From NCBI GenBank assembly GCA_020072645.1, contig JAIQGK010000012.1, positions 124,001-188,000 of the forward strand: DNA of 64,000 nucleotides, in the 5' to 3' direction. Below the pieces are notes generated by a model. The model saw nothing but the letters and a program-made list of their open reading frames with translations. It had not been told where the DNA came from and ran no database searches. Positions within the stretch are counted from its first letter, which is position 1. Each line of letters starts with the position of its first letter. Both the position numbers and the translations under genes were made by a program. This document shows positions 1,645 through 57,261 of the stretch, piece by piece. Origin of the DNA: Terriglobia bacterium. Lineage in GTDB: Bacteria > Acidobacteriota > Terriglobia > Terriglobales > Acidobacteriaceae.

Positions 1645-2409
1645 TTGGCAGAAAGAAGCTCTGCTGTGCCGGTCGGCCTGGGCCGCACGTTGCGCCGCGA
1701 CGCCTGGTGGATGGAGAACATCCCCGTCATCATACTTCTTGGTGGATTCGGCCTGTACGCCACTTGGCGCGCCTTCGAAGGAAAATTTTATTGGTCAGAT
1801 CCATATCTCTCGCCCTTTTACTCTCCGTTGCTTAACATTTCATGGTGGCATCTGTCGCCGGCGCTTCTGATCCTGGCATTCCCTCTCGGGTTCCGCGTCA
1901 CCTGTTACTACTATCGCAAGGCTTATTACCGCGCGTTCTTCATGGACCCACCGGGCTGCGCCGTGGGCGAACCGGCAAACCGCAACTATCGCGGCGAAAC
2001 CAGGTTTCCTTTCATCCTGCAAAATCTCCATCGTTATTTTCTCTATGGGGCCATCGTCTTCCTGTGCTTTCTCTGGTATGACGCCATACGCGCTTTCTGG
2101 TTTCCGGGCCCAGATCAAAAACTTCATTTTGGCATCGGCGTAGGATCACTGGTGTTGCTCGTCAACATCATCCTGCTCACGCTCTATCTGCTCTCCTGCC
2201 ACTCGCTGCGGCACCTGATCGGCGGCAAACTGGATTGCTTTTCCTGCACCGTCACCAATCGCGGGCGTCATGGCGCATGGAAGAAAGCCAGCTTCCTCAA
2301 TGAACGCCACATGCTGTATGCCTGGTGCAGTTTGATTACGGTTGGATTTGCCGATTTCTATGTCCGCATGGTGGCCAGCGGCATGATCAAGGATTTTAGA
2401 ATATTGTGA
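1645..2409 (+). CDS. sdhC: Succinate dehydrogenase membrane anchor / cytochrome b subunit
   Basis: This 254-residue integral membrane protein sits directly before sdhA and sdhB, so it is the quinone-reactive, haem-binding anchor of complex II. Five hydrophobic segments are visible (roughly residues 30-46, 70-88, 130-150, 163-190 and 215-235). Histidines in HLSP, NLHRYF, SCHSLRHL and ERHML are candidate haem ligands. One five-helix subunit replaces the separate SdhC and SdhD of enterobacteria. The start is a TTG with GGAGG six bases upstream (1634-1638). No in-frame ATG fits as well. The stop overlaps the GTG start of sdhA by four bases, giving translational coupling. Assignment rests on context and topology more than on motifs. 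Confidence 0.85.
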   Translation: MAERSSAVPVGLGRTLRRDAWWMENIPVIILLGGFGLYATWRAFEGKFYWSDPYLSPFYSPLLNISWWHLSPALLILAFPLGFRVTCYYYRKAYYRAFFMDPPGCAVGEPANRNYRGETRFPFILQNLHRYFLYGAIVFLCFLWYDAIRAFWFPGPDQKLHFGIGVGSLVLLVNIILLTLYLLSCHSLRHLIGGKLDCFSCTVTNRGRHGAWKKASFLNERHMLYAWCSLITVGFADFYVRMVASGMIKDFRIL

Positions 2410-4133
2410 CGAACCAGACGAAGTATGAAACCCATGAGCATGACGTCCTGATCATTGGCGCGGGCGGCGCGGGCCTGCGAGCGGCGATTGAAGGCCTTGC
2501 CGCAGGCGCTCGCGTTGCCGTGGTCTCCAAATCTCTGCTGGGCAAGGCGCACACTGTAATGGCGGAAGGCGGAATCGCTGCCGCCATGGCCAACGTGGAC
2601 AAGGCCGATAGCTGGCGCACACACTTCCGTGACACTATGCGGGGCGGCAAGCTAATGAACAACTGGCGCATGGCCCAGCTCCACGCCCAGGAAGCGCCTG
2701 AGCGTGTCCGCGAACTGGAGCAGTGGGGCGCGCTCTTTGATCGCACGTCTGACGGCGACATTCTGCAGCGCGCCTTCGGCGGCCATACGTTTAAGCGCCT
2801 CTGCCATGTTGGCGACCGCACCGGCCTGGAGATGATCCGCACGCTACAGGACCGCGGCGTGCAGATGGGCTTTGATGTTTTCATGGAATGCACCATCATC
2901 CGCTTGCTGACCGACGGTAAGCGCGTTGTGGGCGCTTTCGGATATTGGCGGGAGCAAGGCCGCTTCGTGGTGCTGAAGGCTAAAGCGGTGGTGATGGCGA
3001 CCGGGGGCATTGGCAAGGCGTGGCGCGTCACTTCAAATTCCTGGGAGTACACCGGCGATGGCATGGCGCTCGCCTATGACGCTGGCGCGGAATTGCTCGA
3101 TATGGAATTTGTACAGTTCCATCCCACCGGGATGGTCTGGCCTCCGGGCGTGCAGGGAATCCTGGTCACGGAAGCCGTTCGCGGCGAAGGCGGCATTCTT
3201 CGCAACAAAGACGGGCAGCGCTTCATGGAGAAATACGATCCCAAACGCATGGAACTCTCCACCCGCGACGTGGTTGCGCGCTCCATCTATACCGAAGTCC
3301 GAGAAGGGCGCGGCAGCGAGCATGGCGGCGCGTATCTGGATATATCCCACAAGCCCGCTGAATACGTGAAGCAGAAGCTGCCCAGCATGTATCACCAGTT
3401 CAAGGAACTGGCGGACGTGGATATCACCAAAGGCCCAATGGAAGTAGGTCCCACCTGCCATTACATGATGGGAGGAATCCGCGTGGAAGCCGAAACTGCT
3501 GCGTCATCACTGCCCGGACTTTTTGCCGCGGGCGAAGCTGCCGCAGGACTCCACGGCGCCAACCGTCTTGGCGGAAATTCGTTGTCTGATCTTCTGGTAT
3601 TCGGCCGCCGCGCAGGATTGGGCGCTGCCGCATACGCCAGCAAAGCGCCTGCCGCTTCGATCGACGATCAGCAGATAGTCGAGGCTGAACGCGACATGCT
3701 TGCGCCGTTCGACCGTGGTCAGGGCGAGAATCCTTACTCTGTTCATCGTGACCTGCAGGAAGTGATGCAGAACCTGGTCGGTATCTTCCGCGTGGAAGAA
3801 GACATGAACAAGGCCATGGGCGAACTGGAAAAGCTGAAAGCCCGCGCCGCGCGTGTGCGCGTGGAAGGCTCACGGTTGTTTAATCCCGGCTGGCATCTCT
3901 CAAAGGATTTGAAATCGATGCTCACGGTCTCAGAGGCAGTGACCCGGAGCGCCATGGCCCGCAAGGAAAGCCGCGGCGCGCATAGCCGCATCGACTTTCC
4001 CAAACTGGACGAACAAGTCTGGGGCAAACAGCACAACTTGATCACGCGCGATGGAGCAGGAATGAAATTGCAGCAAACCCCGGTGGATGCTATTCCGGGC
4101 GAATTGAATGAGTTGCTGGCAGAAGAGAAATAG
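2406..4133 (+). CDS. sdhA: Succinate dehydrogenase flavoprotein subunit
   Basis: This 575-residue subunit oxidises succinate to fumarate with covalently bound FAD. An N-terminal FAD-binding fold shows GAGGAG at residues 18-23. AHTVMAEGGI follows, in which H49 matches the histidine that carries the covalent flavin. The active-site region shows FVQFHPTG and RGEGG, with HYMMGG and GLFAAGE further on. The C-terminal capping region contains the R-x-S-R-GAHSR block. The GTG start overlaps the sdhC stop (GTGA). It is the second gene of a sdhC-A-B operon, but the 194-base gap to sdhB is long for an operon and holds an interspersed element. Confidence 0.96.
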   Translation: MTNQTKYETHEHDVLIIGAGGAGLRAAIEGLAAGARVAVVSKSLLGKAHTVMAEGGIAAAMANVDKADSWRTHFRDTMRGGKLMNNWRMAQLHAQEAPERVRELEQWGALFDRTSDGDILQRAFGGHTFKRLCHVGDRTGLEMIRTLQDRGVQMGFDVFMECTIIRLLTDGKRVVGAFGYWREQGRFVVLKAKAVVMATGGIGKAWRVTSNSWEYTGDGMALAYDAGAELLDMEFVQFHPTGMVWPPGVQGILVTEAVRGEGGILRNKDGQRFMEKYDPKRMELSTRDVVARSIYTEVREGRGSEHGGAYLDISHKPAEYVKQKLPSMYHQFKELADVDITKGPMEVGPTCHYMMGGIRVEAETAASSLPGLFAAGEAAAGLHGANRLGGNSLSDLLVFGRRAGLGAAAYASKAPAASIDDQQIVEAERDMLAPFDRGQGENPYSVHRDLQEVMQNLVGIFRVEEDMNKAMGELEKLKARAARVRVEGSRLFNPGWHLSKDLKSMLTVSEAVTRSAMARKESRGAHSRIDFPKLDEQVWGKQHNLITRDGAGMKLQQTPVDAIPGELNELLAEEK

Positions 4134-4169
4134 GCAGAACGACAGGTGCAAGCACGAATCGAGTCACTT

Positions 4170-4310
4170 AACGTAGAGACGTAGCATGCTACGTCGGGTG
4201 CATCGATATAGCAGCGAGCCCGGCTTGCGCGGCGAGCTGCTTGCCTCAAGGGCAGAAGAATCTCTGGCGGGCATGGCGCGCCGGCGGTTTGGAGCGAAGC
4301 GACAGAAATA
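4170..4310 (+). repeat. Leader repeat family 1, copy A (before sdhB)
   Basis: The element starts near AACGTAGAGACGTAGC and contains a CGAGCCCGGCTTGCGCGGCG block (about 4213-4234). It ends with CGGCGGTTTGGAGCGAAGCG plus ACAGAAAT at 4281-4309, about 18 bases before the sdhB ATG. Four relatives occur at 5100, 19799, 22009 and 22109. All have the GGAGCG end nearest to the downstream gene. This copy also holds a perfect 18-bp palindrome at 4178-4195. Confidence 0.75.
4178..4195. promoter_or_regulatory. Perfect 18-bp palindrome between sdhA and sdhB
   Basis: GACGTAGCATGCTACGTC is identical to its reverse complement. In RNA it could only form a stem with a very small loop, so as DNA it looks like an operator or an element end. 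It is part of leader repeat copy A. A shorter, imperfect version (CGTAGCGTTGCATGC) sits at the same relative place in copy C. Confidence 0.5.
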
Positions 4311-4327
4311 GAAGCTAGGAGTTATTC

Positions 4328-5071
4328 ATGGCTGATGCGGTCTTAGAGGTCTTTCGCGGCGATCAGGAATCTGGTGCAGCAAAGCAATATACCGTCCCGA
4401 TCGCGCCGGGCATGGTTGTGCTTGACGCGCTGCATTACATTCAAGTGCACCTGGAGCCCGATCTCGCAGTGCGGTGGAACTGCAAGGCCGGCAAGTGCGG
4501 CTCCTGCTCCGCGGAAGTCAACGGCAAGCCCCGCCTCACCTGCAAGACTCGCATGGACGCGCTGCCCACCGACAAGCCCATCACCGTCTATCCCATGAAG
4601 TCATTCCCGGTGATCAAAGACCTCGTCACGGACGTCTCATGGAATTATCGCGTCAACAAAAAGATCCCGCCGTTTTCGCCCAAGCCCAAGACCGATTGGA
4701 AGATGTATCAGGAAGATATGGACCGGGTGCAGGAGTTCCGCAAGTGCATTGAATGTTTCCTGTGCCAGAATGTCTGCCACGTTGTGCGCGACCACCACAA
4801 GAAAGAAGAGTTTGGCGGGCCGCGCTTTTTCGTGCGCGTGGCATCGCTGGAAATGCACCCGCTGGACAACCTCTCACGAGTCAAACTTCTCAAAGACGAG
4901 CTGGGCATCGGTTATTGCAACATTACCAAGTGCTGCACTGAGGTCTGCCCTGAAGAGATACACATCACTGACAATGCCATCATTCCTCTCAAAGAGCGTG
5001 TGGTGGATGAATATTACGATCCCATCATGAAATTGGTGCGCAAGATACGCGGCGCGCCAAAATCGGATTAG
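4328..5071 (+). CDS. sdhB: Succinate dehydrogenase iron-sulfur subunit
   Basis: This 247-residue protein is the electron-transfer subunit between SdhA flavin and the membrane anchor. An N-terminal ferredoxin domain carries the [2Fe-2S] cysteines CKAGKCGSC and a later TC (about residues 51-72). The C-terminal domain carries CIECFLCQNVC for the [4Fe-4S] cluster and CNITKCCTEVCPE for the remaining cluster. AGGAG lies seven bases before the ATG. The gene is separated from sdhA by an interspersed leader element, so its expression may be tuned separately from sdhCA. Confidence 0.95.
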   Translation: MADAVLEVFRGDQESGAAKQYTVPIAPGMVVLDALHYIQVHLEPDLAVRWNCKAGKCGSCSAEVNGKPRLTCKTRMDALPTDKPITVYPMKSFPVIKDLVTDVSWNYRVNKKIPPFSPKPKTDWKMYQEDMDRVQEFRKCIECFLCQNVCHVVRDHHKKEEFGGPRFFVRVASLEMHPLDNLSRVKLLKDELGIGYCNITKCCTEVCPEEIHITDNAIIPLKERVVDEYYDPIMKLVRKIRGAPKSD

Positions 5072-5099
5072 AATTGTAACAGTGGTTAAAAAAGATCGC

Positions 5100-5199
5100 T
5101 CAACGCGCGAGGCCGGCTTGCGCGCCGAGCGCTGCTTCGGGCAGCAGATGCCTTTCCAGGCAACGAGACTTGCCGGCGGTTTGGAGCGTAAGCGACAAG
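5100..5199 (+). repeat. Leader repeat family 1, copy B (before the TPR gene)
   Basis: It contains CGCGAGGCCGGCTTGCGCGC followed by a CTGCTTCGGGCAGCAG hairpin (about 5131-5147). It ends with GCCGGCGGTTTGGAGCGTAAGCGACAAG at 5172-5199, only four bases before the ATG at 5204. The same two blocks in the same order occur in copies A, C, D and E. Confidence 0.75.
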
Positions 5200-5203
5200 A
5201 CCT

Positions 5204-5716
5204 ATGGAACGGCAGCTAAAAGCAATCTCAAAGAACGGCATTACAGAGGCGCTGGCAAAAGTACAGCACTATCGTTACCTGAACCAGGCGGAGGAAGCGG
5301 AATCAATCTGCCGCGATATTCTGGCCATTGACCCGGAAAATCAAATGGCGTTGCGCCAGTTAGGTCTCGCCATCACTGACCAATTTAGAGGCACTCTCTC
5401 TGACGGATTCCACGAAGCCCAGACTTGCTTTGAAAAACTCTCCAGCCCTTACGAGCGATCCTATTATCAGGGCATTTTGCATGAGCGGCGTGCCAAGGCC
5501 CAGCTACGCGCCGGCCACACGGCGCACTCTCTCATGGCCAGCTTTGAGAACGCGATGCGCTGTTTTGAGGAAGCTGAAAAAATACGTCCACAAGGAAACG
5601 ATGACGCGTTGCTTCGCTGGAACCGCTGCCTGCGCCTGATCCAAAGCTTGCCCGCTTTGACAAACGAGTCAGATTCCTTTGATGCCAGCGACGCGCCGCC
5701 CATTTTCAGAAGGTGA
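5204..5716 (+). CDS. Small TPR-repeat protein of unknown function
   Basis: This 170-residue protein has no signal peptide, so it is probably cytoplasmic. Residues 13-60 form a clear TPR pair (HYRYLNQAEEAESICRDIL, then DPENQMALRQLGLA). A second helical region follows (FEKLSSPYERSYYQGILHERRAKAQL and an alanine-rich helix pair). The C-terminal 30 residues are polar and probably disordered. TPR helices usually mediate protein binding; the partner is not evident. The start codon sits right after leader repeat copy B. Its GGAG is 17 bases from the ATG, too far for normal initiation. Confidence 0.75.
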   Translation: MERQLKAISKNGITEALAKVQHYRYLNQAEEAESICRDILAIDPENQMALRQLGLAITDQFRGTLSDGFHEAQTCFEKLSSPYERSYYQGILHERRAKAQLRAGHTAHSLMASFENAMRCFEEAEKIRPQGNDDALLRWNRCLRLIQSLPALTNESDSFDASDAPPIFRR

Positions 5717-5869
5717 GTTTCGCTGAGTGCTTGCGGCAGCCGGCGGAAGCTCTTGAAAACCCTGTTGTTGATTCTCTAGCACCCACTGCCGGATCTCCAT
5801 AAACTCGCGTTGGGCTGCGGTTTTAGCGCCCCATAACCGGTCTTTTCTCTTCCGAGAACTTCAATCTGG

Positions 5870-5885
5870 CGTGACCGGCGTCACA
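5870..5885. promoter_or_regulatory. CRP/FNR-family-like site upstream of the universal stress gene
   Basis: CGTGA-CCGGCG-TCACA differs at one position from the CRP-type consensus TGTGA-N6-TCACA. The inner part is a GTGAC-N4-GTCAC palindrome. It lies 55 bases before the usp ATG, a plausible activator or repressor position. A perfect match occurs at 45070-45085. The regulator itself is not in the window. Confidence 0.5.
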
Positions 5886-5913
5886 TCCTCCGTGGTCACT
5901 GCCTCATTAAACT

Positions 5914-5937
5914 GGGCACTCAATGAGTGAGGTGCCC
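5914..5937 (+). promoter_or_regulatory. Hairpin that would sequester the ribosome binding site of usp
   Basis: GGGCACTCA (5914-5922) can pair with TGA-G-GTGCCC (5928-5937), giving nine pairs with one bulged G and a five-base loop. The only Shine-Dalgarno of the next gene, GAGG at 5929-5932, lies inside the 3' arm. The ATG begins two bases after the stem. This suggests translational control by folding. Confidence 0.5.
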
Positions 5938-5939
5938 TC

Positions 5940-6824
5940 ATGAACACGCTTGAAGCAGTTACTGCGCTATCGCTAAAAAACATTCTTTTGGCTACCGATT
6001 TCTCTCCGGGCTCGGAAACCGCCGTAAAATATGCGCAAGCCATCGCGCACAGGCATTCCTCACGCGTCCACACCATCCACGTAAACTCGCCGGACTCATA
6101 CAATCTGCTGGATCCGGATGCATTCTCCATCACGTTTAATGGCTCGGAATCAGACACAAAAAATGTTGCGGACGTGCTGCATGGACTTCTCACGGGACTG
6201 CCGAGCCAGACGCCATTGCGTCAAGGCGCGGTATGGGAAGTAATCAGCGACGTGGTGAAGCGCAATGAAATTAATTTGCTGGTGCTGGCGTCGCATGGCC
6301 GCCATGGAATTCCCCGGCTCGTCTTGGGTTCCGTAGCTGAAGAAGTTTTTCGTAACGTTTCTTGTCCGGTGCTTACGGTTGGCCCTGATGTGAAGCCCTG
6401 CAACAGCCGGGAGATGAAAATCAATAAAGTGCTGCTGGCTACGCATTTTGAAGCTGGATCAACCGCGCCTGCGCACGCCGCGCTGCTTTGCAATGAATTT
6501 GGCGCCGAGCTAACAGTCCTGCACGTGGCCGATGAGAACAAGGTTGCGTCGAACGGAAAAAATGGCAGAGAGCTTGCACAACAGCTCAACTCCGTGGTGC
6601 CGCCGGAGGCCTGCCTGTGGCGGAAACCAGTGTGTGTTCTTAAGTATGGATTGCCTTCAGCCAACATTCTGGAAGTTGCACAACAGATGCGCGCTGATCT
6701 GATTGTGCTGGGAGCACGCCATCCCGAGCCGGCGAAAATCAATTCGCACCTGCCCTGGGCGACCGCGGCCCGGGTCATTGCTGAAGCTGAGTGCCCCGTA
6801 TTGACCGTGCGGCAGAAGGACTAG
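5940..6824 (+). CDS. Tandem universal stress protein (two UspA domains)
   Basis: This 294-residue protein has two Usp folds in one chain (about residues 10-148 and 160-292). Usp proteins are cytoplasmic, often bind ATP, and accumulate under starvation or redox stress. The first domain keeps the nucleotide loop near residues 118-131 (ASHGRHG, then LGS). In the second domain the same place reads LGARHPEPAKINS and lacks the glycine spacing, so only the first domain is likely to bind ATP. Both domains end with the typical CPVLTV strand. The leader has a CRP-like site and a hairpin covering the Shine-Dalgarno. Confidence 0.9.
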   Translation: MNTLEAVTALSLKNILLATDFSPGSETAVKYAQAIAHRHSSRVHTIHVNSPDSYNLLDPDAFSITFNGSESDTKNVADVLHGLLTGLPSQTPLRQGAVWEVISDVVKRNEINLLVLASHGRHGIPRLVLGSVAEEVFRNVSCPVLTVGPDVKPCNSREMKINKVLLATHFEAGSTAPAHAALLCNEFGAELTVLHVADENKVASNGKNGRELAQQLNSVVPPEACLWRKPVCVLKYGLPSANILEVAQQMRADLIVLGARHPEPAKINSHLPWATAARVIAEAECPVLTVRQKD

Positions 6825-8531: not shown

Positions 8532-9629
8532 TTAGTTCTCACGGCTGTTGAGGCTATAGTGATTTACGGTTACGCGATAGGTGTGCACGTTGGCCGCAAG
8601 GTCGTCGCGCAATGCCACGGAGAAGGGTTGCGGCGTCTGCGGCAGCAAAGCGTGATCAGAGTAGGCGTCAGAAACCCAGATCACCTGTCCGCCATTATCG
8701 TAAAATGTTGCCAATACGTGCGGGATGTTTACAGTCTCTCCGCTCTCATTCAGCAATTCGCCTTTCAGCACAGTTCGTCCAGTCAGGTCTTTTTCGATCC
8801 TCTGATGCAACACAGCGATGACCGGATCGGCCGATGCGGGTACGAGCATCCAGTTGTGAGTCATGCGGACGGATTTCACGTCGGCCTTTTTGATGCCAGG
8901 AAAATCGATGCGATACGGCGATACTTCCTTCGGAAGCAAAACGTGTGAGAGCTTGTCAAAGCTGCTTTCTTCCGCAATGTCTTTGCCGCTATTGTCGGTA
9001 AGCACCGCGCCCACGCTAATGAAAGCCGGGACAGTATCTTCATTCACTACTTCGCCCATGATGATCAGAGCGCCGTCGCGCTCCACGGCATGCATGGAAA
9101 GAATGCGGCAATTCGGGTTCTCAACGTTCTGCGCGCCCCAGTCATCGCCAGCGCCACGCCACACAATGTCCCAGCGCAGATAGTTCACGGGAATCACCTG
9201 CGGCGGCACGTTCACTTCTTTTTCCGCTGGCCACACCACTTTCCATGTGCCATCGTCTTTTACTACTTTCAGGTCACGCGTCTCAAAAGAAGCGCCAACG
9301 GCGGTCGCATACTTGATTTCAGTGCGAACCGTGGCTTCATTTTCAGATTCATGCAGCACGCGCGTGTTGACCGAGTCAAGCTGAGAATAGGTGCGCAGGC
9401 TGCCGTTGCGTCCAGCCAGATCACGAACGAAGCCGCCCTGGTCAACGTTGCTGGAAGGAGCGACAAAAGCATACGCGCCCTGCCAGTCATGCGTCTTGGC
9501 ATTGTCAAACATTGCTTGCACGGCGCCATCCGGCGTGGAGGCGTGCGTGGTCTTGCTTCCATGCACCGTGCCAACGGCAATCAATCCCACCGTAAGCGCT
9601 CCAAAGATGATTGCTAATAAGCGGCCCAT
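8532..9629 (-). CDS. Exported protein with NTF2-like and FxLYD-like domains
   Basis: This 365-residue protein begins with an uncleaved anchor or signal segment (LLAIIFGALTVGLIAVGTV). Residues about 30-130 look like an NTF2-like domain (PDGAVQAMFDNAKTHDW to DGTWKVVW). Two later segments, near residues 190-260 and 285-345, resemble FxLYD modules (LIIMGEVVNEDTVPAFISV, and VLKGELLNESGETVNIPHV with ATFYDNGGQVI). These modules occur in extracytoplasmic proteins of unknown role. The ATG overlaps the stop of the preceding membrane gene by one base. Domain names are inferred from pattern, not from a search. Confidence 0.7.
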   Translation of the reverse strand: MGRLLAIIFGALTVGLIAVGTVHGSKTTHASTPDGAVQAMFDNAKTHDWQGAYAFVAPSSNVDQGGFVRDLAGRNGSLRTYSQLDSVNTRVLHESENEATVRTEIKYATAVGASFETRDLKVVKDDGTWKVVWPAEKEVNVPPQVIPVNYLRWDIVWRGAGDDWGAQNVENPNCRILSMHAVERDGALIIMGEVVNEDTVPAFISVGAVLTDNSGKDIAEESSFDKLSHVLLPKEVSPYRIDFPGIKKADVKSVRMTHNWMLVPASADPVIAVLHQRIEKDLTGRTVLKGELLNESGETVNIPHVLATFYDNGGQVIWVSDAYSDHALLPQTPQPFSVALRDDLAANVHTYRVTVNHYSLNSREN

Positions 9630-11443
9630 TACAATGCCTCCCGGTATACAGGTTCCTCGCTTGAGGTCAGCGGGAACTCAATTGTTTCAAGCTTGCGGCG
9701 CTTGTCTGGGAACGCCAGAACAAGGACCAGCGCAAGAATGCTGCTGCCGATGGGAAGCGTGCCCCAGAGAATCCCTTCCATGCGGGTGGGCGGCGTTCCG
9801 TATGGCGTCTTGTGCGCCGGAGGAATTCCATCTTTCACCCACAGGCTGACATTGCCACGATCATAAACTTCTGTCTTGCGCCAGCCGGCAAAGGCGATCA
9901 GCGGCTCGTAATACGGGTCACGAACAAATATGTATTTCAATCCGTACTGCTCGGCGTGCTTTAGCACGGCCCGCAGTGACTCAATGCCGTTTGTCCCGTA
10001 ATACTTTGAGTTGGTGAGCTGAGCTGATCCGTACTTCGTCATTTCCGGAAGCAGACGGGCGGAGTTGTATTCGCCGTCAACGCTGCTGGCGTTGGCGTAG
10101 ATTCCCACTTCAGACATCTTGCTTCCAAAACCGAGTGTGAGATACCGGTACTTGTCATGGCCGTCGCGGTTCAGGAAGGAAACGACCTCAGCCGTGCTGA
10201 AAGGCGCATCATGGATAGGGTGATACACCGGCCATGAAACCGCCATCGCTACACTGAACGCGCCTAGCGCGCCCAGAACGAACGCTGCCTTGCGTCCATA
10301 GCGATCAATCAAGACCACAGCGCCCAAAGCCACGATCGGCAGCGCCATCAGGTTGGCCCAGAAGCTGAAACGCTCAAAGGTGAGAATGTCAAAAGGATTG
10401 TGGACATTCGCGCCGGTAATCGCATTCACAACACCGGCAAGCATGCCCAGCAAGATGCGCGGCAACGGTGTGGTTCCGCCCAAGCCGAAAATCATCGTCA
10501 GCCAGAAGCCGATGAAGAGCGGACGCAGCCTGGATTCTTTTAGGCCTTTGAGAAAGATGAATGGAAGCGCCAGCAACATTGCGCCCCACGGCACAATGAT
10601 GTAGTTCACCGCCAGCCAGCCCTGAGAGAAGAAATTCTCGCGGCTACCGTGTGGGATAGGCATCTGCTTGATCGGGTTGGCTTTTAGCGCCAGCCAATAT
10701 GGCAGCAGCACCACGATAATTCCGACGAGAGAGAGCCCGGCAAAAATTGCTGACCGTATTACGACTCCGGCGGTAGTAGCATCAAGACCATCGCGTTTGC
10801 GATCCATGATGGCCGTGACCACTACGGGAATGGTGAAGATCACGCTGGCAAACAACAATGTCACGTGGTGCGCCGAGGCGGCGGCCATAGTTAGCGCCAG
10901 GGCTTTGCACAACGCCATCATCTTGCTTTCACGCGCCCATTCATAAAAGTACCCAAGCGCCATCAGGTAAAGTGGCGCGGCCCATGTGGTGGATAACTGT
11001 CCGTCAACGTACACGAGCGAAGCCAATGATCCCAGCAGCACACTGCCAATGGCGGCGTAACTGGCGGCCCGTTCGCCCACCCATATTCGCGCATATTTAT
11101 AAACGCCGATAGGAAGCAACAGAATCGCAATCAGCTGAACAAAAATATAGGCCAGGTTCAAGCCCATCACGTGGGAGAACAGCGCCATCCACTGCTGCTC
11201 CATAGGCGGATACGTCGTCTGCGAGAAACCGGTAAACCACTTTTCATTCCACGGATTGAACCAGTGTGTCGCATAGTGCGCCGCAAAAAACTTGTGGAAG
11301 TCCGCGTCGTACGAGTCATTGGTAATTTGCATCAACAGGAGCGGACCGTGCACCAGCAACGCCAGCAACAGCACCCAACTCAAAGGAATCGCACGAGTGG
11401 GCAAAGTAACCTGCCTGCTCGGAGCGATGGATGGGGAACTCAT
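9629..11443 (-). CDS. Multi-pass membrane protein, GT-C-like (6-pyruvoyl-tetrahydropterin synthase-related family)
   Basis: This 604-residue protein has about ten or more transmembrane segments. The first extracytoplasmic loop is acidic (NDSYDADFHKFFAAHYA), as in GT-C glycosyltransferases, which take sugars from polyprenyl phosphates. The layout and the DADFHKF/NPWNEKWF region recall the PTPS-related membrane family. It is the first gene of a four-gene operon whose other products are exported, so it may modify or build a surface polymer. A clear GGAGG lies six bases before the ATG. The catalytic assignment is inference; it could also be a non-enzymatic flippase-like protein. Confidence 0.65.
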   Translation of the reverse strand: MSSPSIAPSRQVTLPTRAIPLSWVLLLALLVHGPLLLMQITNDSYDADFHKFFAAHYATHWFNPWNEKWFTGFSQTTYPPMEQQWMALFSHVMGLNLAYIFVQLIAILLLPIGVYKYARIWVGERAASYAAIGSVLLGSLASLVYVDGQLSTTWAAPLYLMALGYFYEWARESKMMALCKALALTMAAASAHHVTLLFASVIFTIPVVVTAIMDRKRDGLDATTAGVVIRSAIFAGLSLVGIIVVLLPYWLALKANPIKQMPIPHGSRENFFSQGWLAVNYIIVPWGAMLLALPFIFLKGLKESRLRPLFIGFWLTMIFGLGGTTPLPRILLGMLAGVVNAITGANVHNPFDILTFERFSFWANLMALPIVALGAVVLIDRYGRKAAFVLGALGAFSVAMAVSWPVYHPIHDAPFSTAEVVSFLNRDGHDKYRYLTLGFGSKMSEVGIYANASSVDGEYNSARLLPEMTKYGSAQLTNSKYYGTNGIESLRAVLKHAEQYGLKYIFVRDPYYEPLIAFAGWRKTEVYDRGNVSLWVKDGIPPAHKTPYGTPPTRMEGILWGTLPIGSSILALVLVLAFPDKRRKLETIEFPLTSSEEPVYREAL

Positions 11444-50525: not shown

Positions 50526-52766
50526 TCACACCTTATTCAATCTCTGCACATCGTGTATCCCCGGGATCTTCCTCAACCCGCCGATCACGCGCTCCAGGTG
50601 CTTCACGTCTTCAATATCAATCACAATATCGATCGTTGCCTGGCTGTCGGCGGTGCGCGCCTCAATGTTGCGGATGTTGGTATTGTCGTCAGAGATCACG
50701 GCGGTGAGCTGCTTCAGCATCGCCGGACGGTCGTCGCAGAAAACCGTCAGCTTCACCGGATACGTTCCGCGACCATCTGTCTTGTCGATCTTAAGCGGCT
50801 TGGCCCATTCCACAGCAATGCGGCGATCCGCTTCATACATCAGGTTGTTCACGTTCGGGCAGCTCACCGCGTGCACGGCTACGCCTTTGCCCCGTGTCAC
50901 GTAGCCCACAATCGCTTCACCGCGAATCGGATTGCAGCATCGCGCGCGATACACCAGCAGATCGTTATAGCCTTTTACCTTGATCGCGCCCGTGTCCGCG
51001 CTCTGTCCAAACACACGACGGATCACAGTGCCCAGCGTGCTGCCGGCCTTCGGCGCTTCTTCCGCGGCAGGCGTCTGCTCGGAAATTTCCGGTGATAGCT
51101 TGGCCAGCACCTGCCGTGCGGAATATTTTCCGTAGCCGATTCCCGCCAGCAGGTCCTGTCCGCCGCCCAGGCCGTATTCCTTGGCGATGGCGTCCATTGT
51201 CTTCTCGTTAAAATCTTTCAGCGCCAGCCGATATTTGCGCGCCTGCTTTTCCAAAAGCTTTTTCCCGATCTCAATGGCCCGCTCACGCTGATGAATGTTC
51301 AGCCAGTGCCGTATCTTATTGCGCGCGCGCGTGGACTTGGCAAAGCCCAGCCAGTCGCGGCTGGGATTGTGTCCCGGCTGCGTCATGATCTCCACCACGT
51401 CGCCATTGCGCAGCTTGTTCCGCAGCGGCACAATGCGCCCGTTCACCTTGGCGCCGACGCATGAGTGTCCCACCTCAGTGTGAATGGCATAGGCAAAATC
51501 AATTGCGCTGGCATCGCGCGGTAAAATCACCACCTTGCCCATGGGCGTGAAGCAGTAAACCTCTTCCGGGTAGAGATCGACCTTCAGCGTGGAAAGAAAT
51601 TCGTTGGGGTCTTTAACGTCCTGCTGCCACTCCACGACCTGCCGCAGCCATGCGAGCCGCTGCTCATCTTTGGCGCTTACCGGGCTGCCGTCTTTGTACT
51701 TCCAGTGCGCCGCGATGCCTTCTTCCGCCATCTTGTGCATCTCTTCCGTGCGGATCTGCACTTCAAACTGGTGGCCATCTTCGGTGATCACCGTCGTGTG
51801 GAGTGACTGATAAAGATTCGGCCGCGGCATGGCGATGAAATCTTTAATCCGTCCCGGCACCGGACGCCACATTTGATGGATCGCGCCCAGCACGGTGTAA
51901 CAATCCTTGACTGACTTGGTGATGATGCGGACAGCCAGCAAGTCATAAACCTGATCGACGGTAATGCGCTGCCGCAATAGTTTCTGGTGAATGCTGTAAA
52001 GCCGCTTGATCCGGCTTTCCACCTTGGCGTCAACGCCATTTTCCGTAAGCTTCTGTTGCAGTATTTTTACCAGTTTGGCCAGAAACGCTTCACCGGCTTT
52101 GCGGCGCTTCTCCACCGCTGTCCGCACCTGGTCATAGCCGATGGGATCAACATAACGGAATGAAAGATCTTCCAGCTCGCCGCGCACCTTGCCCATGCCC
52201 AGCCGATGCGCCAGCGGCGCATAAATTTCCAGCGTTTCTTTCGCCACCTGCTGCCTGCGCTCTTCCGGCAGGTGCTTGAGCGTGCGCATATTGTGCAGGC
52301 GGTCGGCCAGCTTGATCAGCACCACGCGGATGTCATCCACCATGGCCAGTACCATCTTGCGCACGTTCTCTGCCTGGCGCTCTTCGCGACTGGCCAGATT
52401 AATTTTGTCGATCTTGGTAACGCCTTCAACAATGTGGACTACCTGATCGCCAAACTCGCGGCGTATGTCTTCATGCGTTACCGGCGTGTCTTCAATTGCG
52501 TCATGCAGCAGCCCGGCGGAGATGGCCGTGGAATCCAGCTTCATGTCCGCCAGCACCAATGACACTTCCAGCGGATGAATCAGGTATGGCTCGCCGGAAG
52601 CGCGCGTCTGTCCCTGATGATGTTTGAGAGAAAAATCGTAGGCCTTGCGGATGATTTCCAGATCGTCAGAAGGGCGGTTTTCGGCGACCTTGGCCAGCAG
52701 TTGCTGGAACTTACCATTCAGCAGCTTCAGCTCTTTTTGCGAAGCGGGCTGCGGGTTTGTCGCCAT
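50526..52766 (-). CDS. rel: Bifunctional (p)ppGpp synthetase/hydrolase
   Basis: This 746-residue stringent-response enzyme has an N-terminal HD hydrolase domain with intact metal motif (SLKHH at about 46-50, LLHDAIEDT at 86-94). The synthetase domain follows (about 240-340) with the metal-type motif RIKD in GRIKDFIAMP and LYQSLHTTV. RXKD at this place is the signature of Mn-dependent bifunctional Rel/SpoT, unlike the EXDD of RelA. Then come a TGS domain (VEVQ to VYCFTPMGKVVILPRDASA and following), a zinc-finger-like region (CCNPIRGE) and an ACT domain. ATG 52766 is preceded directly by TATAAT, suggesting a leaderless mRNA. Confidence 0.94.
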   Translation of the reverse strand: MATNPQPASQKELKLLNGKFQQLLAKVAENRPSDDLEIIRKAYDFSLKHHQGQTRASGEPYLIHPLEVSLVLADMKLDSTAISAGLLHDAIEDTPVTHEDIRREFGDQVVHIVEGVTKIDKINLASREERQAENVRKMVLAMVDDIRVVLIKLADRLHNMRTLKHLPEERRQQVAKETLEIYAPLAHRLGMGKVRGELEDLSFRYVDPIGYDQVRTAVEKRRKAGEAFLAKLVKILQQKLTENGVDAKVESRIKRLYSIHQKLLRQRITVDQVYDLLAVRIITKSVKDCYTVLGAIHQMWRPVPGRIKDFIAMPRPNLYQSLHTTVITEDGHQFEVQIRTEEMHKMAEEGIAAHWKYKDGSPVSAKDEQRLAWLRQVVEWQQDVKDPNEFLSTLKVDLYPEEVYCFTPMGKVVILPRDASAIDFAYAIHTEVGHSCVGAKVNGRIVPLRNKLRNGDVVEIMTQPGHNPSRDWLGFAKSTRARNKIRHWLNIHQRERAIEIGKKLLEKQARKYRLALKDFNEKTMDAIAKEYGLGGGQDLLAGIGYGKYSARQVLAKLSPEISEQTPAAEEAPKAGSTLGTVIRRVFGQSADTGAIKVKGYNDLLVYRARCCNPIRGEAIVGYVTRGKGVAVHAVSCPNVNNLMYEADRRIAVEWAKPLKIDKTDGRGTYPVKLTVFCDDRPAMLKQLTAVISDDNTNIRNIEARTADSQATIDIVIDIEDVKHLERVIGGLRKIPGIHDVQRLNKV

Positions 52767-52771
52767 GTTCA

Positions 52772-52777
52772 ATTATA
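52772..52777 (-). promoter_or_regulatory. TATAAT box five bases upstream of the rel ATG
   Basis: On the minus strand a perfect TATAAT is followed by TGAAC and then the ATG, so transcription would begin at or next to the start codon. There is no Shine-Dalgarno. No matching -35 hexamer is obvious 17 bases upstream. Confidence 0.5.
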
Positions 52778-52835
52778 GCGTGAAAAAATGCGGACTTTGC
52801 ACGGACGAGCGCTTAGCCAGCCGCTCGATGCGCGG

Positions 52836-53492
52836 CTACCTGCACAGGCCTTTCAGTTCATCAGGAAGCTGCAGCGGGAGCGCTTTCGCTGCAATTGCTT
52901 CCCACAACTGATACACCCTACTGGTGTTTTCAGCGGGAACCTCTCCACCTGCAACCGTTTGATCAAGCCTTCTTGCTCGCATACAAGCCGCTGCGACTGA
53001 TACGAGTGGAAAATCCTTCTGCCTCAGATTCGCCTTATTGTATTGCCCCAGCTGAGAACGTAGCGCCGCCTCGACATCTGCTGCAGTTGAAAGACCGCGG
53101 ACCGCCGCCTCTTCGACGTGGTGCAGTAGCAACCACAGCTCGAAGCATGGTTTGCTTACGGCAATATTCACCCCACTCTTACGGGCCTGAGTAATCGCTG
53201 CGAGAAAGCTTTTTATGTGATTTCCTTGTGCACAGTGGTCGATATCGATAACCATCCATAGTTCGTCGTCATCTTCGTGTTCAAATCCCAGCAAACGTGT
53301 TAATACGTGCTCCGCGACGGAGGTACCATCAATGGTCGGAACCACGTGAACCTGCACTCTCGGAACTCTGTAAAACTCGAAGTATTGCCTTGGCGCATAT
53401 GTATCATCGCAGGCCACAATAAAGAGCCTGTCGTCCCGAAGGCTGTCGCGGTCTCTAGCTAGTGGTCTCGGCTTACGCTGTACAAGGCTCAT
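52836..53492 (-). CDS. RloB-like protein, second component of an AbiL-type defence pair
   Basis: The 218-residue product starts at ATG 53492, 20 bases inside the upstream ATPase gene. The RloB core shows a strand RLFIVACDDT at the place of the usual IVCEGxxTEP, followed by RQYFEFY, then the acidic strand ELWMVIDIDHCAQGNH with DxD, and PCFELWLLLH, where RloB proteins have PxFExWLLxH. The first acidic residue is Asp rather than Glu, and the following TEP is lost. Toprim-like nuclease activity is suggested by this layout (inference). Together with the ATPase it matches AbiLi/AbiLii or RloA/RloB phage-defence modules. Confidence 0.75.
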   Translation of the reverse strand: MSLVQRKPRPLARDRDSLRDDRLFIVACDDTYAPRQYFEFYRVPRVQVHVVPTIDGTSVAEHVLTRLLGFEHEDDDELWMVIDIDHCAQGNHIKSFLAAITQARKSGVNIAVSKPCFELWLLLHHVEEAAVRGLSTAADVEAALRSQLGQYNKANLRQKDFPLVSVAAACMRARRLDQTVAGGEVPAENTSRVYQLWEAIAAKALPLQLPDELKGLCR

Positions 53493-54861
53493 TCGCGTTA
53501 CCCTTTTCAAGCAGCAAACGGTTGATATCCCCCATGAAAGGTACTGCGCCAAACCTTCCTTGCAAGTAATGCTTGCGAATCTCCAGATCCTTACGAACTT
53601 TAAAATCCGCCAACGAATACAGCCGTGTAGCGGCTCCTGAATCTTTCTCGGCAAACCAAATCTCATCCCGGCGAAGCAGTTCTAAATCCAATAGATTTGA
53701 CTCGTGAGTGGTAACAATAACTTGACCCAATCTACCTTTACAGGATTTTAAAAATAGCTGTAGAAAATTCACGACCAATATCGGATGCAAGCTGCGATCA
53801 ATTTCGTCGATTAGGTATACTGCACCGCTGGTTTTCATATGGTGCAAAGCGGGCATAAGGTTGAGGAGACGCCGAGTACCATCCGACTCATCTGCAAGCT
53901 CCAATGTTATCTCCTTGCCCGCAAGATCCTGATGCGCTGCTTGGATTGTGATCAAGTAGAAATGCTTCTCTTCCGACCGCTCGATTAGGAGTTCGTTCCC
54001 TTCACTTAAGCGGACAATGGCCATGTCATCATCACTTTCAGCAATGCTTTTTAACACACTGGAAAAGGTATCGGCGGGTAGAAAAGTTCTAAGATCATCT
54101 TCTGCGATTTCCGCTTTCGAAATTTTCAGGTGATCGACTCCCGTAGAAGACAATCGCAAAAAATCGTCGGCGAATTCTTTAAAATGCGAATCGCGTGCGA
54201 GGAGATCCCCTAGCGTACGAAATGAAGCAGTAGGGGCTATCAGATTCAAGCCAGAATTAAACCATTCCAAGATCGCATTTAGCTCTTCGCCATAGTCGGG
54301 GGCTTCGAGCGTGGCGTAAATCGTGGCTAAGAATGACTGATTCTGGGGGCCACCCACTGTGGCTAGGGCGCGCAATTTTTCGCCGGCGTTCTTGATGCCC
54401 TGAGCATCGATTGTCACTTTTCCATGCTCGTCAGTTATCCTCTCATACAGAGTTTTTTCCCGGCTGCCATCGATCTCTAATAACCATTCTTCTGTAATTC
54501 TTTGGTCGTTTAATTTCAGGCCGAAACGGAACAGCTTTTCTCCCGCAATGAACTGCAAATCAAAACTAGAAAGCTCCCCATCTACACCTCCAAAGCGGAA
54601 CGCCTCTCTTCCGGTTCCACTGTTCCTCTCCCTAGCCTTAAGAGCCGCCGACCTTAGATAGCGAAGCGCCTTGAAAAGGTTCGATTTACCAGCTCCATTA
54701 GCCCCATAAAGGACAGCTGTACGTAGAACACGCTCTTTAGAGCCTGGAATTGGAATTGCATGATCTTCGTGACTCCCCGCCAATCGATTACTCGCTACGA
54801 GAGAAAATGTCTCTTCCGACTGAAAAGAACGAAAGTTAGACACAGAGAACGAAACGATCAT
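53473..54861 (-). CDS. AAA/ABC-type ATPase of an AbiL/RloA-like defence pair
   Basis: The 462-residue product starts at ATG 54861 with GGAGG six bases upstream. It begins MIVSFSVSNFRSFQSEETFS, the typical opening of OLD/RloA-type SMC-like ATPases. Walker A is LYGANGAGKSNL (about 44-55). A long helical and strand insertion follows. The late part has a D-loop-like SDGTRRLLNLMPAL, Walker B AVYLIDEIDRSLHP, and the H-loop strand VIVTTHESNLLDL. The downstream RloB-like gene overlaps it by 20 bases. Such ATPases sense phage components and control a partner nuclease. Local base composition is more AT-rich than the flanking rel and gltX genes, suggesting acquisition. Confidence 0.82.
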   Translation of the reverse strand: MIVSFSVSNFRSFQSEETFSLVASNRLAGSHEDHAIPIPGSKERVLRTAVLYGANGAGKSNLFKALRYLRSAALKARERNSGTGREAFRFGGVDGELSSFDLQFIAGEKLFRFGLKLNDQRITEEWLLEIDGSREKTLYERITDEHGKVTIDAQGIKNAGEKLRALATVGGPQNQSFLATIYATLEAPDYGEELNAILEWFNSGLNLIAPTASFRTLGDLLARDSHFKEFADDFLRLSSTGVDHLKISKAEIAEDDLRTFLPADTFSSVLKSIAESDDDMAIVRLSEGNELLIERSEEKHFYLITIQAAHQDLAGKEITLELADESDGTRRLLNLMPALHHMKTSGAVYLIDEIDRSLHPILVVNFLQLFLKSCKGRLGQVIVTTHESNLLDLELLRRDEIWFAEKDSGAATRLYSLADFKVRKDLEIRKHYLQGRFGAVPFMGDINRLLLEKGNANEPCTA

Positions 54862-54919
54862 AGCCAGCCTCCGCGAGACAAAATCACGCTCTAACAAAGA
54901 ACATGCTACCTCATAAACA

Positions 54920-54950
54920 TGAAATTTTGATTTAATTGTGAAATTTTCAC
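54920..54950. promoter_or_regulatory. Operator-like repeats upstream of the AbiL-like pair
   Basis: TGAAATTTT occurs at 54920-54928 and 54939-54947, spaced about 19 bases (near two helical turns). The second is part of the palindrome GTGAAA-T-TTTCAC (54938-54950). They lie about 60-90 bases before the ATPase start and could bind an autoregulator. Confidence 0.5.
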
Positions 54951-54965
54951 GCGGAACGCACAGCC

Positions 54966-55544
54966 TTAGGGCCTTGCTCCTCCCGTGTGCTTCCCAGTCT
55001 TCAAGTCCACCTCAAACGGCACTTCTTTATCTGCCAGCGCGTCCCATCCATGGCCCAGCAGCTTGTCTCCATCGATGGCGCTGATGGTTAATCCTTCCCA
55101 CGTGAGCCGCTCCGTAGTCCACGCAATTCCCAGACTACCAACTGCAACAATTGACGTGAAACCAGCAAACAGCAGAAGCCCCTGCTGCGACAGCACGCGC
55201 AAGTCCACCACCGGGCGCTGTTCGATTCGCAGCCAGTCAGCGTGGTCAGAGGCCTTCACCAAGTATGCGTAGCCGCCCACCACCACGCAAAAACGCTCGG
55301 GATCAGGCGTTGAACAAAGTTGGCTGACCACCTGGTCAGAGTCAAAACCCAGCGCAAAGAATCCCGCCCACGCCGCTCCGCTCTGCGGCGTGACGCGCAC
55401 GTACGCGCCGCTGCGGTCGCCTTCCTCAAGTTCCACGGGATAGTGGTACAGCTTCTCAATAGGATGAACGGGCGGAGCAGCTTCCAGGATTCTAACTTCA
55501 TAGTTGCGCGGGAAGGTAAAGTCGAATCGGAAGTGAGGTTTCAT
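54966..55544 (-). CDS. Hypothetical protein with one hydrophobic segment
   Basis: This 192-residue protein starts FRFDFTFPRNYEVRILEAAP. Strand-rich regions follow (KLYHYPVELEEGDRSGAYVR, WAGFFALGFDSDQVVSQLC, FCVVVGGYAYLVKASDH), then a moderately hydrophobic stretch (GLLLFAGFTSIVAVGSLGIA, about 125-144) and a final strand pair. In the usual case GLLLFAGFTSIVAVG would be a buried strand pair rather than a membrane helix. No family is recognised. It lies between the defence pair and gltX on the same strand. The gene GC style is that of the core genes, not of the defence pair. Confidence 0.65.
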   Translation of the reverse strand: MKPHFRFDFTFPRNYEVRILEAAPPVHPIEKLYHYPVELEEGDRSGAYVRVTPQSGAAWAGFFALGFDSDQVVSQLCSTPDPERFCVVVGGYAYLVKASDHADWLRIEQRPVVDLRVLSQQGLLLFAGFTSIVAVGSLGIAWTTERLTWEGLTISAIDGDKLLGHGWDALADKEVPFEVDLKTGKHTGGARP

Positions 55545-55651: not shown

Positions 55652-57160
55652 TCAATTCTTTTGTGCCGCTGTAAACTCTATTATCCGTTCGCGCACGCTC
55701 TTCACGTGCACCGGCAATTCCAGCCTGCTTCCATCTTCGATGACTGGAATAAGCTTGTTGAAGTCCGGTCCGGAATGCGATCCAATCAGCATGATCCTCA
55801 CCGGATGAAATAAATCTTTTCCCTTTGCGCCCGTCTCTGCCTTGATCTCATCCATGATTGCCTTAAAGCGCTCCGGCGTCAGCGGCGACTCATTCGTTGC
55901 GCGCTTCGCAAACGCCTGCACTACGGCCTTTGCTTTGTCGCTGGCAAACACCTCTGCATTCTCCGGCAGGGCCAGCGCCGCGGCAGCGTCATGGTTGAAG
56001 ATGATCTTTGCTTTCTCCGGCAACTGATCAAGCTGATCAACATAAGGTGCCAGCAAATCAATCAGCCCATTCGTCCAACCTTTGACGTTGCCATTCACGC
56101 TGGACGGCAGCAGCCCTGCGCGCTGCAAAGCCTCCGTGCCCATTTGATGAATGCGCTCGGGCGGGCTTTGCTTGATGTAATGCCGATTGATCCAGTAGAG
56201 CTTGGTGAAGTCGAAAACCGCAGGCGCCGCATTCACGCGGTCCAGGTCGAATTCTTTGATCAACTCGTCCTTGGAAAAGATCTCGCGATCGCCGCCGCTC
56301 GGGGCCCAGCCCAGCAGCGCCAGGTAATTCATCAGGGCCTCGGGCAGCACGCCCATATCGCGGAAGCTGGCCACTGACGTGGCTCCGTGCCGCTTCGACA
56401 ACCGCTCGCGATCGGGCCCCAGGATAGTCGAGAGATGCGCAAACTCGGGCACCGGCAGCCCCAGCGCCTCATACACGGCAACCTGTTTCGGCGTGTTGGA
56501 AATGTGGTCGTCGCCCCGGATGACGTGTGTGATCTTCATATCGGCGTCATCGATCACCACCACGTAGTTATAGGTCGGCATGCCGCTGGAGCGGACGATG
56601 ATGGGATCGCTCACTACTTCATTTGAAAATTCAAGGTCGCCGCGCACAATGTCATGGAAGCGGATGGGACGCTCAGGAATCTGCAAGCGTATTGCCGCTG
56701 GCTCGCCCGCTGCCCGGCGCCGCTCCGCCTCCGCTGGATCAATGTTCCTGCACTTGCCGGAATAGTTTGGCTGGCGCTGTTCCGCCATGGCCTGCTGGCG
56801 ATCGCGCTCCAGTTCCTCGGCGGTACAGAAGCAGTAATACGCCTTCCGCTCCTTGATGAGCCGCTCAGCATAGTCGCGATACACGTCCATCTTGTCCGAT
56901 TGCCGGTAAGGCGGATACGGGCCGCCGATGTCCGGCCCTTCGTCCCAATCAAGGCCCAGCCACTTCAGGTCTTCGATGAGCTGGGTTTCGTATCGCGCCT
57001 CACTGCGCTCCAGGTCAGTGTCTTCAATCCTGAGGATGAACGTTCCGCCATGCTTGCGGGCAAACAACCAGTTAAACAGCGCTGTCCGCACATTGCCAAG
57101 GTGGATGTGTCCCGTGGGCGACGGCGCAAAGCGGACGCGAACTTTATCGTTCGATGACAT
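55652..57160 (-). CDS. gltX: Glutamyl-tRNA synthetase
   Basis: This class I aminoacyl-tRNA synthetase has 502 residues from ATG 57160. [20 protein letters not shown] carries the HIGH-type signature (HLGN), [13 protein letters not shown] follows, and the KMSKS-type loop is [10 protein letters not shown] (about 245-255). The CP1 insert contains the CxC-like CFCTAEE and the CRN segment of a possible zinc site. The C-terminal helical anticodon domain is complete. Only one GltX is seen in the window, so discriminating versus non-discriminating character (with GatCAB) cannot be told. It is divergent from the antiporter. Confidence 0.95.
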
Positions 57161-57261
57161 GTATATCCATGGTAACAAAAGCCAATCGCCTGATTTGCCC
57201 AGCCAACGCCCGCAGTCGGAATTTCATCTGATCCTATGACAGCAGCTCCGGATTCCCATTC

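Follow-up and report, generated by a model that had tools for sequence, protein, structure and literature searches.

A probable laterally acquired AbiL module with putative twin operator palindromes between rel and gltX in a Terriglobia bacterium

The AbiL pair between rel and gltX

The window is the whole stretch of 64,000 nucleotides that was analysed in this work. It carries two genes, rloA and rloB, where the order along the minus strand is gltX, a conserved ORF, rloA, rloB, and rel. The features of the locus are shown in Table 1. The start of rloB is most likely the ATG at 53490-53492 rather than the ORF start at 53666, which gives an overlap of 20 nt with rloA.

Table 1. Features of the locus, with positions in the window.
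Feature	Position	Strand	Remarks
rel	50526-52772		Flank of the pair
Variable slot holding the module	52795-54965	no strand	Between rel and the 192-aa ORF; GC 48.8%
rloB/abiLii	52836-53492	-	TOPRIM-like effector, 218 aa; PADLOC AbiLii, Pfam RloB
rloA/abiLi	53473-54861	-	SMC/Rad50-like ABC ATPase, 462 aa; start ATG 54859-54861; PADLOC AbiLi, Pfam AAA_21
Downstream operator copy (candidate, imperfect, 7/10)	54874-54888	-	CGTGATTTTGTCTCG; starts 27 nt before the start codon
Upstream operator copy (candidate)	54937-54951	-	CGTGAAAATTTCACA; starts 90 nt before the rloA start codon
Conserved 192-aa ORF	54966-55544		Between the pair and gltX
gltX	55652-57178		Other flank of the pair

The sequence-only reading had described two overlapping genes between rel and gltX as an AbiL/RloAB-like pair and had proposed a check against defence models (DefenseFinder/PADLOC). 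Both ORFs are present on the minus strand, PADLOC calls both as AbiL genes, and Pfam agrees. RloA matches the PADLOC model of AbiLi (PDLC02335, E 4.5e-85, top of 89 families) and Pfam AAA_21 (E 1.1e-35). RloB matches AbiLii (PDLC02337, E 1.9e-15) and Pfam RloB (PF13707, E 3.1e-20). The pair consists of an AbiLi-matching ATPase gene and an adjacent, overlapping RloB/AbiLii gene on the same strand, which are two of the features that define AbiL. By these sequence matches, the pair is a member of the known AbiL (AbiLi/AbiLii, RloA/RloB).

The GC content of rloA is 46.9%, which is below all 2,953 segments of the same size (step 20) outside the slot and within the 64-kb window. The GC content of rloB is 52.4%, where 286 of 3,025 such segments are lower. 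Only the ATPase gene is therefore clearly AT-rich, so the earlier statement that the pair is AT-richer than its flanks holds for rloA and not for rloB. No tRNA genes were found in the 64-kb window.

In four genomes of the same genus (G153, G134, G050, and G150), a single contig carries both rel and gltX at a distance of 2.0-4.5 kb. In the DNA alignment against the window, all six relatives lose homology at the start of rel (52777-52794), and the four that have the 192-aa ORF on the contig lose it where this ORF ends (54965-54988). The gap differs in all four readable relatives, which exhibit four distinct ORF sets: a 289-aa ORF (G153), an alpha/beta hydrolase and a DUF4177-like ORF (G134), a 210-aa ORF (G050), and a 265-aa ORF with a PIG-L protein and a weakly YcxB-like protein (G150). 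The cargo of the rel-gltX interval is thus variable, as had been anticipated. The anticipated alternative defence cargo did not appear. Eight ORFs on the upstream side of rel were selected in five relatives (seven from the gaps and one from G154), and PADLOC gave no match at E <= 0.01 for any of them. A dedicated site of defence exchange is unsupported because of this result, and the slot was rejected as such a site.

The 289-aa ORF of G153 and the 210-aa ORF of G050 have no Pfam or PHROGs match. Judged by eye, the G050 ORF at L043:8579-9211 in the same slot is PD-(D/E)xK nuclease-like, and the G153 ORF at L041:9389-10258 in the same slot has a HEPN-like stretch at its end.

This RloB was found in none of the eight other genomes of the genus, where G154 gave a weak and partial match of 35%. 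RloA has matches in eight of the 150 genomes of the window's family, including the window's own, and the sole close match among them is in G063 (64%). RloB occurs in 10 of the 396 genomes of the phylum, including the window's own, and nine of these are above the family cut-off. A scan of GTDB genomes with RloB yielded 22 loci, and 18 of them (L085-L102) are at 54-66% identity. According to the record titles these 18 belong to Acidobacteriota, Thermodesulfobacteriota, and Pseudomonadota, and most of them are metagenome assemblies. The RloA tree (58 rows) places a Geobacteraceae sequence as the partner of the window's RloA (support 97/85) within a 17-row subfamily (support 100/99). The nearest kin are in other phyla, so these comparisons support a lateral arrival of the module. 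The lateral insertion of the pair put forward earlier is upheld by the eight genomes of the genus without this RloB and by the grouping of RloA with Geobacteraceae.

The RloB subfamily and the protein models

RloB of the window has D29-D30 in place of the canonical Glu-Gly of TOPRIM and retains D83-x-D85. Asp-Asp is present in all 19 readable rows (of 21 rows, two are without the stretch), which comprise the subfamily and a more distant relative from Archangium (L103). The other 38 RloB rows have Glu-Gly (32), Glu-Asp (2), or Asp-Gly (3) after strand 1, or are unaligned (1); they include three second copies of loci (L158, L159, and L166), and Glu-Gly is found in 30 of 35 rows when these are taken out. 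The second acidic motif, D-x-D, is retained in nearly all RloB rows. RloB thus belongs to an Asp-Asp subfamily that is new relative to known AbiL, and this subfamily would be a natural test of the role of the TOPRIM Glu. The closest RloB (L091:1695-2390, 66%) has N-x-D, where Asn stands for the first Asp of D-x-D, so its active site may be altered.

The AlphaFold model of RloB has a pLDDT of 88.9. The TOPRIM layout has a characteristic strand order, with acidic residues following strands 1 and 3. The model agrees with this layout in how strands and helices succeed one another and in the placement of D29-D30 and D83-x-D85. The best match of the model by VIA is the TOPRIM part of OLD (6p74; Z 6.9 over 133 residues), and a designed Rossmann protein is level with it (Z 6.7). 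The likeness of RloB to the TOPRIM part of OLD is suggestive only. The model has no Foldseek match at E <= 0.001, the RloB sequence has no match in the PDB at E <= 1, and no PARIS (AriB) entry is among the structure matches listed for RloB by Foldseek and VIA. RloB has been linked to OLD_TOPRIM by HHPred (PMC10440598).

The AlphaFold model of RloA has a pLDDT of 84.1. It matches Rad50, PtuA, and OLD at E <= 1e-8 (OLD at 3.5e-9), and the TM-scores, taken by model length, are about 0.35-0.45. Family searches found no DNA-binding domain in RloA or RloB.

Palindromes upstream of the ATPase gene

Two sites of the GTGA-N5-TCAC palindrome type, 63 nt apart, lie upstream of rloA in the window. The upstream copy contains GTGAAATTTTCAC, a perfect 13-bp palindrome at 54938-54950, and GTGAAANTTTCAC has a single match in the 6.4-Mb assembly, which is upstream of rloA. 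A palindromic site is therefore present upstream of the first gene of the operon, as in the autoregulation of type II toxin-antitoxin pairs. The palindromes would lie in a promoter; a sigma-70 scan upstream of rloA gave 0 sites and was uninformative. The sequence-only reading had pointed to an operator-like repeat pair before the module. The direct repeat TGAAATTTT does exist at 54920 and 54939, but it was rejected as the operator because the relatives keep the palindrome instead.

The palindrome was compared across 16 subfamily loci with at least 35 nt upstream, including the window; L101 (upstream stretch of 19 nt), L096 (start of rloA missing), and the first rloA copy in L090 (unreadable N-terminus) were left out. 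The sites of the kin have the form TGTGA-N5-TCACA. Exact GTGA-N5-TCAC is present in 12 of the 16 loci, and L091 and L097 have near matches to it. A downstream copy with at least 7/10 matches is present in 13 of the 16, starting 19-28 nt before the start codon. Nine of the 16 have two copies at a distance of 61 nt (L089), 62 nt (L092, L093, L094, and L097), or 63 nt (L095, L098, L100, and the window). No palindrome was found in L085 and L099 of the subfamily. In a blind scan for twin sites, the score of the window was reached by 1 of 60 shuffles, which preserve single-base content only. The corresponding numbers are 9/60 for L086, 26/60 for L087, and 29/60 for L092, so several members are not significant alone.

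Among 41 distant AbiLi loci, where redundancy was retained, 14 have a GTGA or GAGA site. These loci exhibit 16 sites (9 GTGA and 7 GAGA) against 0.52 expected from the whole-locus density (0.33 and 0.19, respectively). Eleven of twelve control patterns gave 0 in the same 41 loci, and TCTC-N5-GAGA gave 2. The half-sites had been chosen after the first set was seen, so a second set was used. This separate set consists of ATPases from viral contigs, none of which is 70% or more identical to the first set, and comprises 55 representatives (70% identity) of 88, where one start (L296) is CTC. Second copies of a contig, matches not beginning from residue 1, contigs already used, and upstream stretches below 100 nt were dropped. 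A GTGA or GAGA site is present in 9 of the 55 loci against 0.09 sites expected; the alignments used to find this set consisted mostly of operator-bearing ATPases, so the set is biased towards their part of the family.

The controls in the separate set gave TCTC-N5-GAGA in 1 locus, AGAG-N5-CTCT in 1, GACA-N5-TGTC in 3, and GCGA-N5-TCGC in 1. The AGAG-N5-CTCT match is a shifted GAGA site. GACA-N5-TGTC may be another variant of the operator, and the GACA and GCGA sites are outside the count of 9/55. The other mechanical ORFs of the separate-set loci have a site upstream in 1 of 203 cases. Dyads of radius 3-7 were also counted in 57 AbiLi upstream stretches, including the subfamily, against mononucleotide shuffles that keep single-base content only. 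There are 49 odd-centred dyads, some of them A/T runs counted more than once, against 12.6 +/- 3.3 in the shuffled stretches, and 18 even-centred dyads against 13.0 +/- 3.3. No start codon was found for L165.

The site moves with the module across phyla. The two occur together in Acidobacteriota, Thermodesulfobacteriota, Pseudomonadota, Myxococcota, Verrucomicrobiota, a plasmid of Fusobacterium, and viral contigs. Both copies in L156 are GAGA. In L103 and L059 the upstream copy is GAGA and is followed by a near match at 62-63 nt, which in L103 has one mismatch and lies at 63 nt. Judging from L156 and L103, it appears that both copies can change together.

The site does not accompany every AbiL. 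Any tested half-site is absent from 46 of the 66 loci with RloB, and the palindrome was found in none of four further relatives (one lactococcal and three enterobacterial). It would therefore be the operator of part of the family and not of AbiL as such. A strict twin pattern, outside which the window itself falls, has one match in the 396 genomes of the phylum (in G536). A similar pattern has 21 matches in viral contigs, which are taken for chance. Our searches of the open-access literature turned up neither an operator for AbiL nor autoregulation of AbiL, and the conserved twin operator is a putative new feature for the AbiL module.

Other arrangements were seen at several loci. The enterobacterial plasmid loci L135, L307, and L308 have, by eye, a TTTCGC...GCGAAA dyad just before the ATPase start of their AbiL operons, which may represent a variant operator or a hairpin. 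Trinickia mobilis (L090) has two AbiL-like modules (4583-6654 and 9186-10800), which lie on opposite strands with about 2.5 kb between them. A stop interrupts rloB in the first. In the second, the ATPase is distant (28%), a perfect TTTTGTGAAATTTTCACAAAA precedes it, and rloB is reduced to a fragment. The Treponema saccharophilum plasmid locus L133:1201-3023 has an AbiLi-like ATPase followed by an annotated (deoxy)nucleoside triphosphate pyrophosphohydrolase in the place of RloB.

The binding protein and comparison with known systems

Matching palindromes with the same module in distant bacteria suggest that the genes of the pair are switched on and off by the defence proteins that they encode. 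We consider it probable that the pair is a laterally acquired AbiL abortive-infection module that is autoregulated through its operator, most likely by its own ATPase. RloA, by analogy with PARIS, would hold the toxic TOPRIM-like RloB in restraint and would sense infection. RloB would be freed or activated on infection and the cell would be stopped, most likely by the cutting of nucleic acid as suggested by PARIS and by the published toxicity of AbiLii. Proteins encoded by the module itself, and the ATPase most likely, would bind both palindromes and repress transcription, and the state of the sensor would thereby set its own supply. The position of the downstream copy near the start codon suits repression. 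The upstream copy is in phase with it (61-63 bp, six helical turns), which suits a loop or a multimer on both sites.

The loci were cross-checked for the operator and RloB. Among 80 loci, 23 have an operator (four of these are GACA or GCGA sites, which are counted here as operators), where 20 have RloB, two are without it (L175 and L130), and one has no room for it. The 57 loci without an operator comprise 46 with RloB, 8 without, and 3 with no room. The operator is thus present in 2 of 10 loci without RloB and in 20 of 66 loci with RloB, among those with room. L175 (IMGVR_UViG_2600254994_000002, 1682-4516) has a GAGA operator and an ATPase matching AbiLi (4.9e-73), followed by KwaA (5.9e-123) and KwaB (5.6e-108), and no RloB was found in it. 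L130 has an operator-bearing ATPase, and its next ORFs (149 and 450 aa) are not RloB. The operator is kept in both loci without RloB, which points to the ATPase as the binder, where two cases are few. As an observation in its own right, L175 is a possible ATPase-led Kiwa operon.

Loci with the operator tend to group together on the RloA tree (17 changes, versus 25.2 when shuffled, with 0 of 200 shuffles as low), to which near relatives contribute. One group of 36 rows with weak support (81/95) contains 19 of 20 GTGA loci, 4 of 6 GAGA loci, 4 of 4 near matches, and 9 of 28 loci without the site. The GAGA loci are unclustered on this tree (6 changes against a shuffled mean of 5.8). One RloA column tracks GTGA versus GAGA, which was equalled in 12% of permutations, and no RloB column does.

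A host transcription factor (CRP, FNR or Rex-like) could bind the palindromes instead, so that host physiology would control the module. TGTGA...TCACA is like the half-sites of CRP and Rex, and the downstream copy lies near the start codon, where host repressors act. However, the sites of CRP and Rex are even-centred, with a six-base spacer, whereas GTGA or GAGA with a spacer of 4 or 6 gave 0 matches in both sets. The module is accompanied by the site across many phyla, on a plasmid, and in viral contigs. The host genome has 2 matches to TGTGAN5TCACA elsewhere against 2 for the reversed control, so no excess of such sites is visible. Control by a host factor is unlikely on these grounds. RloB could also be the protein that binds DNA, as a TOPRIM dimer or only when complexed with RloA, as in type II toxin-antitoxin pairs. 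The palindrome would suit a dimer, AriB of PARIS is dimeric (PMC12409363), and RloB accompanies 20 of the 23 operators. Binding by RloB is nevertheless improbable given that the operator is kept without RloB in L175 and L130 and that no RloB column tracks the half-site.

The module may otherwise be an ordinary AbiL pair in a neutral gap, where the window operator is a decaying relic that no longer has a role. The imperfect downstream copy and the free variation of the gap among relatives would agree with this, but the upstream copy is a perfect palindrome that occurs once in the genome and both reading frames are open, which makes a relic very unlikely. The least likely reading is that the palindromes are DNA or RNA hairpins, such as a nuclease target or a start-site hairpin, and not a protein operator. 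The N5 spacer is A or T at 184 of 195 letters in 39 sites and a short hairpin is possible, whereas two copies 61-63 nt apart and in phase at six turns better fit protein binding.

Autoregulation by the ATPase is consequently the reading that we prefer. It can tentatively be extended to many AbiLi-type ABC ATPases, which would then be sequence-specific repressors without a helix-turn-helix, although we hold this extension as a possibility and not as a probability. Their SMC/Rad50-like head would read GNGA-N5-TCNC (13 bp, odd-centred) at two sites separated by six helical turns, and would couple the sensing of phage to the transcription of the defence operon, also with a Kiwa effector. The putative operator, conserved and borne by the module, would be a testable handle on the silencing of ATPase-plus-nuclease defence modules ahead of infection, and it would mark AbiL operons that are likely self-controlled. 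An SMC-like head that acts as a specific repressor, if the ATPase is the binder, would be unexpected to specialists.

OLD is one two-domain protein. GajA of Gabija is also one two-domain protein (PMC10440598), and both resemble the window's module in having an ATPase part and a TOPRIM part, which is TOPRIM-like in RloB, where the RloB model is nearest to the TOPRIM part of OLD. The window differs from them in having two separate proteins. PARIS (AriA/AriB) is similar in having an ABC ATPase with a separate effector, TOPRIM in PARIS and TOPRIM-like in the window, and RloA matches the AriA model at 1.6e-32. The effector in the window is RloB, for which PADLOC at E <= 0.01 gives only AbiLii and no AriB model. 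The AriA hexamer sequesters AriB before infection, and AriB cleaves tRNA (PMC12409363).

Known AbiL is similar in having two overlapping genes with the ATPase first and RloB second, and it is the best PADLOC match for both proteins. The window differs in the Asp-Asp that RloB has for the TOPRIM Glu-Gly and in the twin palindromes, which are absent in the lactococcal and the three enterobacterial relatives. AbiLii of F. nucleatum was reported as toxic in E. coli and AbiLi failed to neutralise it, whereas the lactococcal AbiL proteins were non-toxic there (PMC3985639). The TOPRIM_OLD:AAA pair of C. algidicarnis, at the RloB node, is among the pairs validated by toxicity neutralisation (PMC10440598). 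AbiE (AbiEi/AbiEii) has inverted repeats in its promoter that are bound by the first gene product, AbiEi (PMC3985639). AbiEi has a winged helix-turn-helix, none of which was found in RloA, and the repeats and proteins are other ones. The likeness of AbiE to the window's module is that of an abortive-infection operon with upstream inverted repeats.
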